Positions 181 to 60,884 of a DNA stretch of 64,000 bases are shown one piece after another; position 1 is the stretch's first letter, and every line of letters starts with the position of its first letter. This stretch comes from Ruminococcus sp. (GTDB taxonomy: Bacteria > Bacillota > Clostridia > Oscillospirales > Ruminococcaceae): assembly GCA_017519145.1 (NCBI GenBank), contig JAFWTA010000025.1, positions 1-64,000 of the forward strand. The letters run 5' to 3'. Both the position numbers and the translations under genes were made by a program. The notes below the pieces were generated by a model. It made no database searches and was not told where the DNA came from. It saw only the letters and a program-made list of their open reading frames with translations.

Positions 181-200
181 TACCAAGCGAATAAACACAA

Positions 201-231
201 CGCCCCGAGTGCTTTTCGGCACTCGGGGCGT
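201..231. terminator. Terminator-like hairpin after the MFS gene
   Basis: A 12-bp stem CGCCCCGAGTGC/GCACTCGGGGCG lies a few bases beyond the stop codon of the minus-strand exporter. The T tract on the minus side is broken (TTGTGTTTATT), so termination efficiency is uncertain. Confidence 0.6.
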
Positions 232-236
232 TAATT

Positions 237-1532
237 TTATCTATTGTTAAGCTTTTCCTGTTGTATATGTCTGCGCAGAAGCAGTGTGAACACTGTGCAG
301 ACCAGCACTCCGGCTATGCCGAGTATGCCCAGAAGCATTGCTGCTCCCGAGCCCTTGCCCTCTCCGAAAAGAGCGGTGAGGACACTTCCTGCGGACTGCT
401 CCGCCATCAGCGGCTCGGCAGCCCTGTCGATGAATACTCCGCTGAACAGTCCGCCTATGGGTATGGTAAAGAATTGCAGCGTATTACGGCAGGAGTAGAC
501 CCGTCCCTGCATATCCGCAGGGATAGTGCTGCGGAAGATAACGTCAAGCTGTGTACCCATGACAGGGATGAACAGCCAGCCGCAGACAGCTCCGACGCAC
601 CAAATTACAGGCTGATCCGTCAGCGCAAGCAGAAAATTCTCGGTGCTCATGGAGAAAAACAGCGACAGGCATATGAGCCTTACACGGCTTTTCGGAACAG
701 GCAGCGCTGAGGCTATAATGCTTCCGAGCAGCGCAGCTATGCCTGCACAGGCGTTTACCGCGCCGAGGGCTCCCTCGCCTCCCGACGCCTTTGGTATTAT
801 CAGCGCAGGAAGAGCCGCGGTGTAGGCTGATGCAATAAGGTTTATCCCAGACAGGAAGAATATGAGCTTCATGATGAGGGGATTATCCTTCAGCCAGCGA
901 AGTCCCGAGGCAGCAGAGCTGAGCAGGGACTGCTCCTGTTTATACGACCTTTCGGGCTCGGGTATCTTTATGAAGAACAGCAGTGCAGAAAAGGCTGCAC
1001 CGAAAGTGAGCAGGTCGGTGATGATGACAGCTCCGATGCCGCCCCATGCGTAAAGCAGAGTGGCAAAAACGGGGGTGAGTATGGTGTTCAGCGACTGTGA
1101 GAACGAGCGCAGGCCGCCTGTTTTCTGGTAATGCTCCTTTGGTATGAGCTGTGTTGCCGCGACCTCCGCCGCAGGCTGCTGTACCGTGTTCATAAGACCG
1201 CTCACAGCGTTGATGACATAGAGATGCCACGGACAGAGCTGTCCCGTCTTTATGAGCAGAAAGGCTGCTGCCGTTGTTATAGCTGCCAGCAGGTCACAGA
1301 CCAGCATGGTGCGTTTTTTGTTCCATTTGTCGCTGAGAGCTCCCGCAAATATGCTCATCAGCACATAGGGCGCGTATGAACATATCCTCAGCAGAGCGGT
1401 GCTCAGTGCAGAGCCGCTCCCGCGGTAGAGCCACAGCACCAGCGCATAGCTTGTCATTCCGCTTCCCAGCGCGGAAAGGGACTGTGTGCCCCATAATAAC
1501 AGATAGCTTTTTAATTCCTTTACAGTTTTCAT
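237..1532 (-). CDS. MFS drug exporter (MFS_3 / Mef-like family)
   Basis: A predicted 431-residue, roughly 12-helix inner-membrane exporter. The N-terminus (LLLWGTQSLSALGSGMTSYAL...), the cytoplasmic loop between helices 2 and 3 (SDKWNKKRTML, the MFS motif A position) and the central IPEPE loop resemble the MefA/EntS branch of the major facilitator superfamily, which exports macrolides and other drugs by proton antiport. The length is typical and the frame intact. The start is set by AAAAGGAG eight bases upstream of ATG. It is a single gene with a terminator-like hairpin behind it. Its 138-nt leader carries a 12-codon open frame and a foldable attenuator (see 1534-1645), which suggests antibiotic-inducible expression. 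The substrate cannot be told from sequence. Confidence 0.85.
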   Translation of the reverse strand: MKTVKELKSYLLLWGTQSLSALGSGMTSYALVLWLYRGSGSALSTALLRICSYAPYVLMSIFAGALSDKWNKKRTMLVCDLLAAITTAAAFLLIKTGQLCPWHLYVINAVSGLMNTVQQPAAEVAATQLIPKEHYQKTGGLRSFSQSLNTILTPVFATLLYAWGGIGAVIITDLLTFGAAFSALLFFIKIPEPERSYKQEQSLLSSAASGLRWLKDNPLIMKLIFFLSGINLIASAYTAALPALIIPKASGGEGALGAVNACAGIAALLGSIIASALPVPKSRVRLICLSLFFSMSTENFLLALTDQPVIWCVGAVCGWLFIPVMGTQLDVIFRSTIPADMQGRVYSCRNTLQFFTIPIGGLFSGVFIDRAAEPLMAEQSAGSVLTALFGEGKGSGAAMLLGILGIAGVLVCTVFTLLLRRHIQQEKLNNR

Positions 1533-1533
1533 T

Positions 1534-1623
1534 GGCTTTGCTCCTTTTAATTGATTTTACCGGCAAGCAAAGCCCGAGGGTATCAGATAACCTCCATGCA
1601 GTTCCCTCAAGCCTTGCATGGAG
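1534..1623 (-). promoter_or_regulatory. Candidate translational attenuator of the exporter
   Basis: In the minus-strand mRNA the segments CTCCATGCA (1623-1615) and TGCATGGAG (1600-1592) form a perfect 9-bp stem. Downstream, GGCTTTGCT (1574-1566) pairs perfectly with AGCAAAGCC (1542-1534), covering the end of the Shine-Dalgarno sequence and the spacer before the exporter ATG. An alternative pairing, GAGGG (1608-1604) with CCCTC (1580-1576), would compete. This is the four-segment layout of erm-type attenuators. The pairings are visible in the sequence; the switching behaviour is inference. Confidence 0.55.
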
Positions 1624-1645
1624 CTGAAACGATGCATAAACGCAT
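1607..1645 (-). CDS. 12-residue leader peptide
   Basis: A short open frame, MRLCIVSAPCKA followed by TGA, lies in the exporter leader. It starts 7 nt after GGAAGGA, a good ribosome binding site, about 25 nt after the predicted transcription start. Its last codons run through the upstream arm and into the loop of the first attenuator hairpin. A ribosome stalled on it would therefore open that hairpin. Leader peptides of this kind control erm and mef resistance genes. It has no similarity that I recognise to a named leader peptide. Confidence 0.5.
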   Translation of the reverse strand: MRLCIVSAPCKA

Positions 1646-1676
1646 TTTTGTATCCTTCCTTTCGTTTTTTTACTTT

Positions 1677-1706
1677 ATTATATCACCCGAAAGCGTAAAT
1701 TGTCAA
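1677..1706 (-). promoter_or_regulatory. Promoter of the MFS exporter
   Basis: On the minus strand: TTGACA, an 18-bp spacer ending TGA, then TATAAT (extended -10). Transcription should start near 1670, giving a leader of about 138 nt. Confidence 0.75.
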
Positions 1707-1846: not shown

Positions 1847-3169
1847 ATGAAGAAGACTGATCTGAAGCTTATTGCTTGTCTGCCGCTGGCTGCTGTACTG
1901 GTAAGCTGTGGCAGAACTGCCATCGACCCCAATGACTATGTTGAGGTAACATTCGATGGTATGGACACTGTTGCCTATGCTCATGCTGAAGTGGATTATG
2001 AGAAAATGGTAACAGACAACCTCAAGGCTTTCGGCATCAAGAGCAAGAAGGACGACCACGCCATCGAGAGAGCTGCCGGCAAGCTGGAAAAGTATCTCAG
2101 CGGCGAACTGGACAAGTCCTCAAACCTCTCCAACGGCGACGAGATCGTGTTTGAGTGGGATGATGACGATGTTGAGAAGCTTGAAAAGAAGTACAAGATC
2201 AAGCTCAAGGTAAGCGACAAGACAATTACTGTAAAGGATCTTGACGAGCCCAAGAAGTTCGATCCCTTCGACTATCTTGATGTAAGCTTTACAGGCATTG
2301 GCCCCGACGGTCAGATACAGCTGGATTACAGCGATCTCCCCGTTGATTATGTTTCATTCTACGCTGATCCCAGCTACGGACTCAGCAACGGCGACAAGGT
2401 AAAGGTCACATTCGGCTACAGCGAGGACAGTGCTAAGGACGAGTGCTTCAGCCAGGGATATATGCCCGAGAAGTACGAGAAGGAATACACTGTTGAGGGA
2501 CTCCAGCAGTACGCTGCAAAGATCTCAGAGATCGAGAAGAAGTCCTACGACAAGATGGACAAGTACGCTCAGGACCGCTTCATGGAAGACGTTGAGGACA
2601 ACTGGGAGAACAAGGAACTCAAGGATATCGAGCTCCTCGGTGTAAATCTCTATGTTCCCAAGGAAGAGAATTACAGCATGAAGAACGCTCTCTGCTATGT
2701 ATATAAGGTAACTACCACACTCAAGGGTGAGAAGGCAGAGGAGGAGCCTGCAACAGAGGCTGCTTCAACCACCGCAGAGGCTGCAACAGAAGCTCCCACA
2801 ACTACATCCGAGGAAAAGAAGGACGAGGGAACCACAACAGCCAAGGCTGACGAGAAGAAGGAAGAAGCAACAGAGGCTGCAACCGAGAAGAAGGAAGAGA
2901 AGAAGGAAGAAGCTAAGAAGGGTGAGAAGGTATACTACTACTTCGCTTACTACCAGAATGTTCTCACTCCCGGAGACCCCGACAAGGAGTATGACGCTCA
3001 GAGCTACAACGAGCCCAGCTACTCCAATTTCTTCGGCGTATCAGGTGATGCTTTCGCAATCGACGACGTTCTCTATGTAGGATATGAGAACCTTGACGAC
3101 CTCTACAAGGCTGTTGAGGACAAGTTCTACTACGAGTGCAAGGTAGAGACAAATATCAAGAAGAAGTAA
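1847..3169 (+). CDS. Secreted lipoprotein with Lys/Glu/Ala/Thr-rich segment
   Basis: 440 residues beginning with a lipoprotein signal (MKKTDLKLIACLPLAAVLVSC, lipobox LVSC with Cys21), so it should be anchored to the outer face of the membrane. Two related stretches follow, each a beta-rich segment of the type YVEVTFDGMDT... and YLDVSFTGIGPDG... with SNGD motifs (about residues 27-130 and 140-225). A low-complexity region rich in EEPATEAASTT and KKEEKKEE lies around residues 300-365, and a folded C-terminal part carries several Tyr. A sound AGGAGG site precedes the ATG. I do not recognise a named family with catalytic residues; a cell-surface structural or ligand-binding role is possible. Monocistronic: its own promoter before it and a strong terminator behind. 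Confidence 0.8.
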   Translation: MKKTDLKLIACLPLAAVLVSCGRTAIDPNDYVEVTFDGMDTVAYAHAEVDYEKMVTDNLKAFGIKSKKDDHAIERAAGKLEKYLSGELDKSSNLSNGDEIVFEWDDDDVEKLEKKYKIKLKVSDKTITVKDLDEPKKFDPFDYLDVSFTGIGPDGQIQLDYSDLPVDYVSFYADPSYGLSNGDKVKVTFGYSEDSAKDECFSQGYMPEKYEKEYTVEGLQQYAAKISEIEKKSYDKMDKYAQDRFMEDVEDNWENKELKDIELLGVNLYVPKEENYSMKNALCYVYKVTTTLKGEKAEEEPATEAASTTAEAATEAPTTTSEEKKDEGTTTAKADEKKEEATEAATEKKEEKKEEAKKGEKVYYYFAYYQNVLTPGDPDKEYDAQSYNEPSYSNFFGVSGDAFAIDDVLYVGYENLDDLYKAVEDKFYYECKVETNIKKK

Positions 3170-60537: not shown

Positions 60538-60623
60538 TGGTGGGAGAGGATGGATTCGGACCATCGAAGCTGAAAAGCAACAGATTTACAGTCTGCCCCC
60601 TTTGGCCACTCGGGAACTCTCCC
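60538..60623 (-). tRNA. tRNA-Tyr (GTA)
   Basis: 86 nt with acceptor GGGAGAG/CTCTCCC, encoded CCA, anticodon loop CTGTAAA and the long variable arm typical of tRNA-Tyr. Confidence 0.96.
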
Positions 60624-60659
60624 ATAAAGGATCTTGTATTTTGTCTTTGGACAAAATAA

Positions 60660-60735
60660 TGGAGCTGGTGGACGGACTCGAACCCCCGACCTGCTGATTA
60701 CAAATCAGCTGCTCTACCAACTGAGCTACACCAGC
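60660..60735 (-). tRNA. tRNA-Thr (TGT)
   Basis: 76 nt, acceptor GCTGGTG/CACCAGC, encoded CCA, anticodon loop TTTGTAA. Confidence 0.96.
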
Positions 60736-60807
60736 GCTAATGCTTAATTATTATATCACATTTGCTTCTGCTTGTCAAGTACTTTTTTCAACTTTTTTGA
60801 AAAAGTC

Positions 60808-60884
60808 TGGTCGAGGCGACAGGACTCGAACCTGCGGCATCTTGCTCCCAAAGCAAGCACTCTACCAAACTGAGCTACGCCTCG
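60808..60884 (-). tRNA. tRNA-Pro (TGG)
   Basis: 77 nt, acceptor CGAGGCG/CGCCTCG, encoded CCA, anticodon loop TTTGGGA. First of a three-tRNA cluster on the minus strand. Confidence 0.96.

Follow-up and report, generated by a model that had tools for sequence, protein, structure and literature searches.

A leader family ahead of MFS exporters in Clostridia as a probable translational attenuator sensing stalled ribosomes

Our computational analysis indicates that the leader ahead of an MFS exporter gene of Ruminococcus sp. is probably a translational attenuator that senses stalled ribosomes. The leader lies on the reverse strand of the window, by which we mean the whole stretch of 64,000 nucleotides of contig JAFWTA010000025.1 that was analysed. 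A conserved short ORF, three covarying helices and a narrow range of ribosome positions that open the ribosome binding site (RBS) of the exporter were computed here. That a drug causes the stall, and that a Leu-small-residue motif of the leader peptide helps to set its position, is our inference. The features to which the text refers are the following (basis of each in brackets):

198..233, minus strand: terminator-like hairpin directly behind the exporter (consensus match only)
237..1532, minus strand: MFS exporter of 431 aa, the gene that the leader would control (PF07690, E 3.6e-27; PF05977, E 2.2e-21)
1533-1670, minus strand: whole leader (sequence)
1534..1542, minus strand: S, AGCAAAGCC, end of the exporter Shine-Dalgarno sequence and spacer to the start codon (9/9 pairs with M plus one flanking base; covariation)
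1541..1546, minus strand: exporter Shine-Dalgarno sequence AAGGAG (sequence)
1567..1580, minus strand: M, CCCTCGGGCTTTGC, partner common to L and S (pairing; covariation)
1592..1600, minus strand: P1 3' arm, TGCATGGAG (9/9 pairs; covariation)
1604..1617, minus strand: L, the anti-sequestering strand, GCAAGGCTTGAGGG, which includes the leader's final codons and its stop codon (14/14 pairs with M; covariation)
1607..1645, minus strand: leader ORF of 12 codons plus TGA, MRLCIVSAPCKA (ATG at 1645, TGA at 1609-1607; the 12-codon frame recurs in homologues)
1615..1623, minus strand: P1 5' arm, CTCCATGCA (9/9 pairs; covariation)
1628..1639, minus strand: codons 3-6 (L-C-I-V), where a stall is proposed that places about codon 5 in the P site (RBS-opening window and conservation)
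1653..1660, minus strand: Shine-Dalgarno sequence of the leader peptide, AGGAAGGA (sequence)
1677..1706, minus strand: promoter TTGACA-N18-TATAAT with TG before the -10 hexamer (12/12 hexamer matches)

The RBS hairpin M:S consists of nine pairs (1566-1574 with 1534-1542), and the helix L:M extends over 14 bp (1604-1617 with 1567-1580), all 14 positions being paired and three of them G-U; L and S compete for strand M, which makes the two pairings mutually exclusive. The first-pass annotation of this DNA had described a 12-codon leader frame with its own ribosome binding site, and two 9-bp stems, the second of which covers the spacer and the end of the exporter Shine-Dalgarno sequence. All of this is in place: the ATG at 1645 is preceded by AGGAAGGA at 1660-1653, nine of nine pairs form in P1 as well as in M:S, and S (1534-1542) reaches into the Shine-Dalgarno sequence (1541-1546). 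The GAGGG/CCCTC pairing drawn between the two stems is real too, but it is the end of the 14-bp L:M helix and not a 5-bp element. Single-sequence folding of the leader alone is weak evidence: its energy is modestly unusual (z -1.67) and 11 of 200 shuffles fold equally well. The OFF and ON structures of the window RNA have nearly equal folding energies without a ribosome (-37.5 and -36.6), therefore the OFF state would depend on translation and kinetics. A full pseudoknot of P1 and L:M was rejected by reasoning, as the strands share three bases and no loop is left across the 14-bp helix.

The perfect promoter at 1706-1677 predicts a transcription start near 1670, and a leader transcript from about this position speaks against a start inside the leader, which the first-pass annotation had named as an observation against its proposal. 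The terminator-like hairpin at 198..233 suggests that the exporter forms a one-gene unit, and a consensus scan of the leader region (1400-1900) returned no terminator-like site. In the profile scan the exporter hits TIGR00900 and the Mef models, below the cut-off in every case; among the NCBIfam models for Mef macrolide exporters the best one gives 93.5 bits against a cut-off of 800. The protein is 97% identical in Ruminococcus flavefaciens SAb67 (L003), and the model search finds one copy of the leader in the window's own genome. Divergent from the exporter lies a lipoprotein-like ORF of 440 aa (1847-3169, plus strand) with a Thr/Glu/Lys-rich stretch, which the Pfam scan left without a Pfam family; a promoter-like site with 11/12 matches (1770-1798) accompanies this ORF. 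Genes for tRNA Tyr, Thr and Pro (in rising coordinate) stand consecutively at 60538-60884 on the minus strand. Searching Rfam 15 at the gathering score gave three tRNAs as the only matches of the whole window and left the leader unmatched; at neither of two thresholds did it give a hit (best E 1.5, a microRNA family).

The leader is conserved together with the exporter. A protein search with the exporter alone led to 17 loci, and the leader is present in all 16 that reach the N-terminal part of the protein (L002-L017; L018, a match of 64 residues, is outside this count), including four in which the exporters are just 35-37% identical. A DNA search with leader and promoter matched 45 of the 125 genomes of the genus, seven of these 45 by the promoter side only (query >110). 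The alignment of 44 distinct homologous leaders, compared with 500 shuffles per helix, shows that P1, L:M and M:S all covary. Paired cells amount to 93.0% of 440 in P1, 93.7% of 616 in L:M and 92.9% of 352 in M:S; doubly changed cells number 14, 40 and 16 against shuffled means of 4.0, 12.4 and 5.5, a count reached by 0/500 shuffles in each case, and both the covariation score and the percentage paired exceed all 500 shuffles for each helix. Other measures discriminate less. The number of pairs with a two-sided change is reached by 0/500 shuffles for P1, by 40/500 for L:M (weak) and by 338/500 for M:S (unexceptional), and the count of further pair types is unexceptional for P1 (130/500) and M:S (366/500) and weak for L:M (88/500).

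Kinship among the leaders inflates such scores, and controls in which the strands were slid retain this kinship; these controls stay below the observed values on every measure and for all three helices, with narrow margins for the pair types of P1 (8 vs 10) and the changed pairs of M:S (2 vs 3). An alignment-free test gave the same picture: cognate L:M and M:S duplexes are more stable than those of permuted partners, and 0/5000 permutations reach the observed mean duplex energy. The hairpin was found in 127 of 131 leaders for this test, 114 of them distinct, and the window's own hairpin was apparently mis-picked (its L:M reached only -6.7), although its row was retained. The comparison of covariation and codons among relatives, which the first-pass annotation had recommended, thus yields three covarying helices (44 leaders) and conserved codons 3-4 (100 leaders); the lack of conservation of frame or stems that would have counted against its proposal is not what we observe.

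The position at which a ribosome would open the exporter RBS was estimated by folding the leaders with a ribosome placed codon by codon, its 3' edge 15 nt past the first base of the P site, and by measuring the cost of opening the main RBS. The codon number rests on this assumed footprint and may be off by one. From the 131 leaders, two without a main start in the stretch and 25 in which the peptide motif gave no anchor were set aside, which left 104 distinct yet related leaders. In 102 of these 104, opening is cheapest (within 0.5) when the ribosome is at anchored codon 4 or 5; L101 and L141 are the two misses. The RBS-opening window closes past codon 6. The median gain is 5.3 kcal/mol relative to no ribosome and 8.1 relative to codons 7-10; in 4/104 leaders the RBS is no less open without a ribosome than in the ON state. 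Among ten ribosome states of the window's leader, codon 5 alone gives a minimum with L:M formed and S free of M. Shuffled controls were run on three leaders (L019, L041 and L038): the codon contrast was reached by 0/100 shuffles in each, and the gain over no ribosome by 5, 21 and 0 of 100, so that the latter is exceptional in one of the three. In longer leaders the RBS-opening window moves to codons 12-13 (L013, L016) or 14 (L139) and is still at the hairpin. The 25 unanchored leaders include Cfr and CD3324 copies; a narrow RBS-opening window is present in L143 (codon 9) and in L161, L164 and L165 (codon 5), and absent, e.g., in L103, L148 and L156.

These results suggest the following mechanism. 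In the OFF state, ribosomes would complete the 12 codons, and a ribosome at the stop codon would cover L; otherwise P1 would hold the GCA of L. M would thus be left to pair with S, closing the exporter RBS. In the ON state, an antibiotic would stall the ribosome when about codon 5 occupies the P site and the nascent peptide is approximately M-R-L-C-I. The leading edge of the stalled ribosome would cover the P1 5' arm and stop just short of L, and P1 would thus be blocked. L:M could then form over its 14 bp and release S and the Shine-Dalgarno sequence, whereupon the exporter would be translated. A stall at the conserved Ala8-Pro9, which is a good phenicol context, was also considered and rejected because a ribosome there keeps the RBS closed and because RNA pairing explains codons 8-12.

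The codons of the leader were counted in 100 distinct hairpin-anchored leaders. Codon 3 encodes Leu in 67/100, for which all six Leu codons are used, and codon 4 encodes Cys in 60/100 (TGC 43, TGT 17), one of C/A/S/T/G in 85/100 and A/S/T in 21/100. None of the codons 3-6 falls within P1, L, M or S. Codons 3-4 are kept as amino acids, Leu and then a small residue, a pattern that suggests selection for the peptide. Ile is encoded by codon 5 in 57/100, 52 of these 57 being ATT, and the third base of this codon is T in 79/100; at codon 6, V, A and D together account for 88/100, and the first base is G in 92/100. Since V, A and D codons all begin with G and codon 5 is biased to ATT, codons 5-6 may be held partly by RNA; ATT-G at these codons (1628-1633 in the window) is kept beyond the needs of the peptide. 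Codon 10 is Cys in 92/100 leaders, and codons 8-12 are near-fixed including their nucleotides, as the pairing of P1 and L would lead one to expect. The N-terminal residues differ between clades. Longer leaders keep the motif beside the hairpin, as in L139 (MRNILQLLQSE-LLCIV-HAPCIV) and L136 (MILP-LCI-RFAPCKV). A subgroup with 20 residues (L013, L014, L016 and L017, with L150 as a diverged member) shares MKLTRWGIPL[SA]AD, in which Ala precedes Asp at the predicted stall.

The same element is widespread. Searches with covariance model R1 (E 0.01) found it in 61/125 genomes of the genus, in 49/394 genomes of the order (34/168 genera) and in 35/391 genomes of the class (31/223 genera), and model R2 (E 0.001) in 12/368 genomes of the phylum; the genome samples overlap and some of the weak hits are chance. 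The window's leader, which had been presented as a single switch, is thus one member of a large family (61/125 genus, 35/391 class genomes). The gene behind 131 leaders has its best match to MFS exporters in 100 cases, the CD3324 family in 11, CatA-like enzymes in six, methyltransferases in five, radical-SAM proteins in three, ceramidase-like proteins in two, Cfr in one, an alpha/beta hydrolase-like protein in one and no family in two. These 131 leaders are a non-random set, many of them obtained via the exporter or its leader and some model hits left out. Three hits of the models (L109, L245 and L246) were judged by eye to be chance, and L106, L141 and L239 are leader-like without a matching gene directly behind. 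Reduced forms are seen in L104 and L105 (about 1501-1585), which retain the leader and P1 and lack M and S; in these the exporter starts behind P1, whose 3' arm contains the nearest Shine-Dalgarno-like sequence, GGAGG. Leaders L152-L159 of the genus have an unrelated sequence (NCSVQ peptide), yet their layout of P1, L, M and S is the same; they precede an unassigned methyltransferase or a radical-SAM protein (for L154 the gene is outside the data).

Sister copies of the leader stand before genes of known resistance types. The Cfr behind L143 scores 590 bits against a curated cut-off of 530, and L143 has P1, L:M and M:S pairings of the window's kind. A survey of the Cfr family in 291 genomes gave none over the cut-off, and its matches are presumably RlmN. 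Two of the six CatA-like genes were scanned and reached 210 and 212 bits against a cut-off of 270. The CatA survey listed 58 places, of which 30 loci were fetched; a leader is certain in L222, which is the locus of L099, and doubtful in L224 (E 0.0033). L100 and L101, two more of the listed places but outside the 30, carry the leader. With a convincing leader in one of 30 CatA-family loci, the link appears confined to one subgroup. Small HTH-like genes resembling the CD3324 family accompany a variant of the switch in L103, L108, L148, L149, L160-L166, L240-L244 and L249; the one scanned, in L160, matches NF040785 with 108.6 bits against 65. Several CD3324 copies read P1 in another frame, therefore their leader peptides differ. 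These proteins are possibly antibiotic-induced regulators. In two CD3324 loci a Vat-like acetyltransferase follows downstream, as the next gene in L240 and one gene further in L249 (235 and 242 bits against a cut-off of 300).

Mobile elements were searched as well. Among the matches listed in the plasmid search (25 of 300 records), exporters 54-56% identical are found in Subdoligranulum and Monoglobus records, both with the leader, and the others are at most 31% identical; among the matches listed in the phage search (25 records) there are distant exporter relatives only. A plasmid search with the DNA of CatA leader L099 gave no match, and L137, a CatA-like plasmid gene whose identity to the one behind L099 is 73%, has no such leader by eye. 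Three viral contigs matched the element patterns. L247, an IMG/VR contig of 10,030 bases, holds a near copy of the window's leader and exporter start and may be host DNA, L249 holds a CD3324 copy of the element, and L248 looks like a chance match.

A ribosome stalled with its P site on codon 5 would carry a nascent peptide whose penultimate residue is encoded by codon 4. The CatA-like, Cfr and Vat-like genes all counteract drugs that target the peptidyl-transferase centre. The residues at codon 4 and the presence of such genes behind sister copies make peptidyl-transferase-centre drugs the likeliest inducers (phenicols, oxazolidinones, lincosamides, streptogramin A, pleuromutilins and natural relatives), and the sister genes point to these drugs rather than to macrolides. 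Passages of PMC8987054 describe chloramphenicol and linezolid as stalling best with Ala, and less with Ser or Thr, as the penultimate residue. This strict rule fits 21/100 leaders at codon 4, where Cys is the commonest residue (60/100); Cys is probably comparable to Ser by its size.

One would argue that the leader is a general gauge of its own translation, in which any slowdown at the first codons turns the exporter on and the peptide is irrelevant. We consider this possible, though doubtful. It is consistent with N-terminal residues that vary by clade, with the different peptides of the CD3324 copies, with codons 5-6 being kept partly as nucleotides and with the uORF MRI of C. difficile cplR, which in passages of PMC10201436 is thought to be drug-stalled with little context specificity. 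However, Leu at codon 3 is written with six codons and followed by a small residue, the motif remains at the hairpin in longer leaders (L139, L136), and since the RBS-opening window shuts past codon 6, a general slowdown would open the RBS in part only. A related idea is attenuation by amino acid supply, where scarce Cys-tRNA would stall the ribosome at a Cys codon and turn the exporter on. The frequent Cys at codons 4 and 10 would invite it, but it is hardly credible: codon 10 is within P1/L and explained by RNA pairing, and the RBS stays shut while a ribosome sits on it; a ribosome held up for want of Cys at codon 4 would have codon 3 in its P site, a position that for most leaders falls outside the RBS-opening window; 40/100 leaders have no Cys at codon 4; and Cfr and CatA-like genes do not fit.

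A ligand-binding riboswitch with an incidental ORF is very unlikely as well. A conserved structured leader ahead of an exporter would agree with it, but start, stop and codons 3-4 are conserved, Rfam offers no match, and the linkers between the helices vary freely in length with no obvious aptamer core beyond the helices. Finally, the leader could be a translational attenuator that senses macrolides, like those of erm and mef. The sub-cut-off matches of the exporter to TIGR00900 and Mef models and the hydrophobic start MRLCIV, which resembles erm stall peptides, speak for this. Against it, the predicted stall at about 5 residues is earlier than erm stalls at 8-10, and 129/131 downstream genes could be placed in one of the query families, a set with CatA-like and Cfr proteins but without erm and ABC-F. 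We thus regard macrolide sensing as unlikely, and a stall caused by peptidyl-transferase-centre drugs is kept as the preferred reading.

Taken jointly, the family could tentatively be read as one ancestral loop-strand attenuator which senses early stalls at a short Leu-small-residue motif and has become a common antibiotic-response switch of Bacillota, controlling exporters, CatA-like enzymes, Cfr and CD3324 proteins, with a penultimate Cys as a new stalling context; this reading is speculative. The CD3324 proteins would then be antibiotic-induced regulators comparable to WhiB7, an actinobacterial regulator induced by antibiotics. If the leaders work as proposed, many Clostridia hold inducible intrinsic resistance, and surveys of gene presence cannot judge it since it is silent until a ribosome stalls. 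The leader would also mark several uncharacterised kinds of gene, namely those for CD3324 proteins, methyltransferases and radical-SAM enzymes, as candidates for a role in an antibiotic response. The family offers more than 100 natural variants of one stall-sensing design, most of them with a predicted stall codon, and thus the nascent-peptide rules of ribosome drugs become testable.

Word searches, with most subscription journals outside their scope, found no paper that describes this leader element, and a word search for the CD3324 family found none either. In ermC, 1:2/3:4 pairing changes to 2:3, the first hairpin provides the anti-sequestering strand with its 3' arm, and the stall occurs at codon 9. 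Here L sits in the loop of P1, overlapping the last bases of the P1 5' arm and the stop codon, and the stall is predicted at about codon 5. Since the alternative pairing uses the loop of the first hairpin, the topology differs from that of ermC, and a change from 1:2/3:4 to 2:3 is not what the strands form. In cat-86 the leader stall is early. The leader peptides and RNA of the cat, cmlA and fexA chloramphenicol attenuators are not known to resemble those described here, and the exporter here is TIGR00900/Mef-like. The general principle is nevertheless shared: passages of PMC5418344 present translational attenuation as the established mode for cat, cmlA, fexA and ermC; they place it ahead of an acetyltransferase or exporter in the chloramphenicol systems and, for the ermC type, describe a leader ORF with its own RBS, a downstream hairpin that sequesters the RBS and a drug-stalled ribosome that shifts the pairing. 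The mef/mel (msr) attenuator likewise precedes a Mef-type exporter, but controls transcription according to the same passages, whereas no terminator-like site is found here. Clostridioides difficile cplR (ABC-F) resembles our case as uORF-controlled intrinsic resistance of a clostridium, in its translational part; it differs by a three-codon uORF MR[I/M] and a transcription terminator (passages of PMC10201436), and no terminator-like site was found in the leader region here. For the pSCFS1 cfr leader, a uORF-dependent uncovering of the cfr RBS has been proposed, with two overlapping uORFs (passages of PMC8752094, compared by description).

The likeness to erm and mef leaders seen in the first-pass annotation therefore has to be divided: the element would work like the erm and cat attenuators, but its layout is not that of mef, which is transcriptional (passages of PMC5418344), and the leader holds no terminator-like site. 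Of what characterizes translational attenuators, the ORF with its own RBS, the hairpin covering the main RBS and an exclusive pairing that frees it are present, and the opening of the RBS by a ribosome at a defined leader position is given by folding only (102/104 leaders, with shuffles on three). The proposal of a ribosome-stalling attenuator is thereby strongly backed by comparison as to the conserved ORF, the competing covarying helices and the one-position window of RBS opening, and is corrected as to the ermC topology and the mef layout. The best reading of these comparisons is that the leader represents a variant of translational attenuation whose strand topology differs from that of erm and cat.
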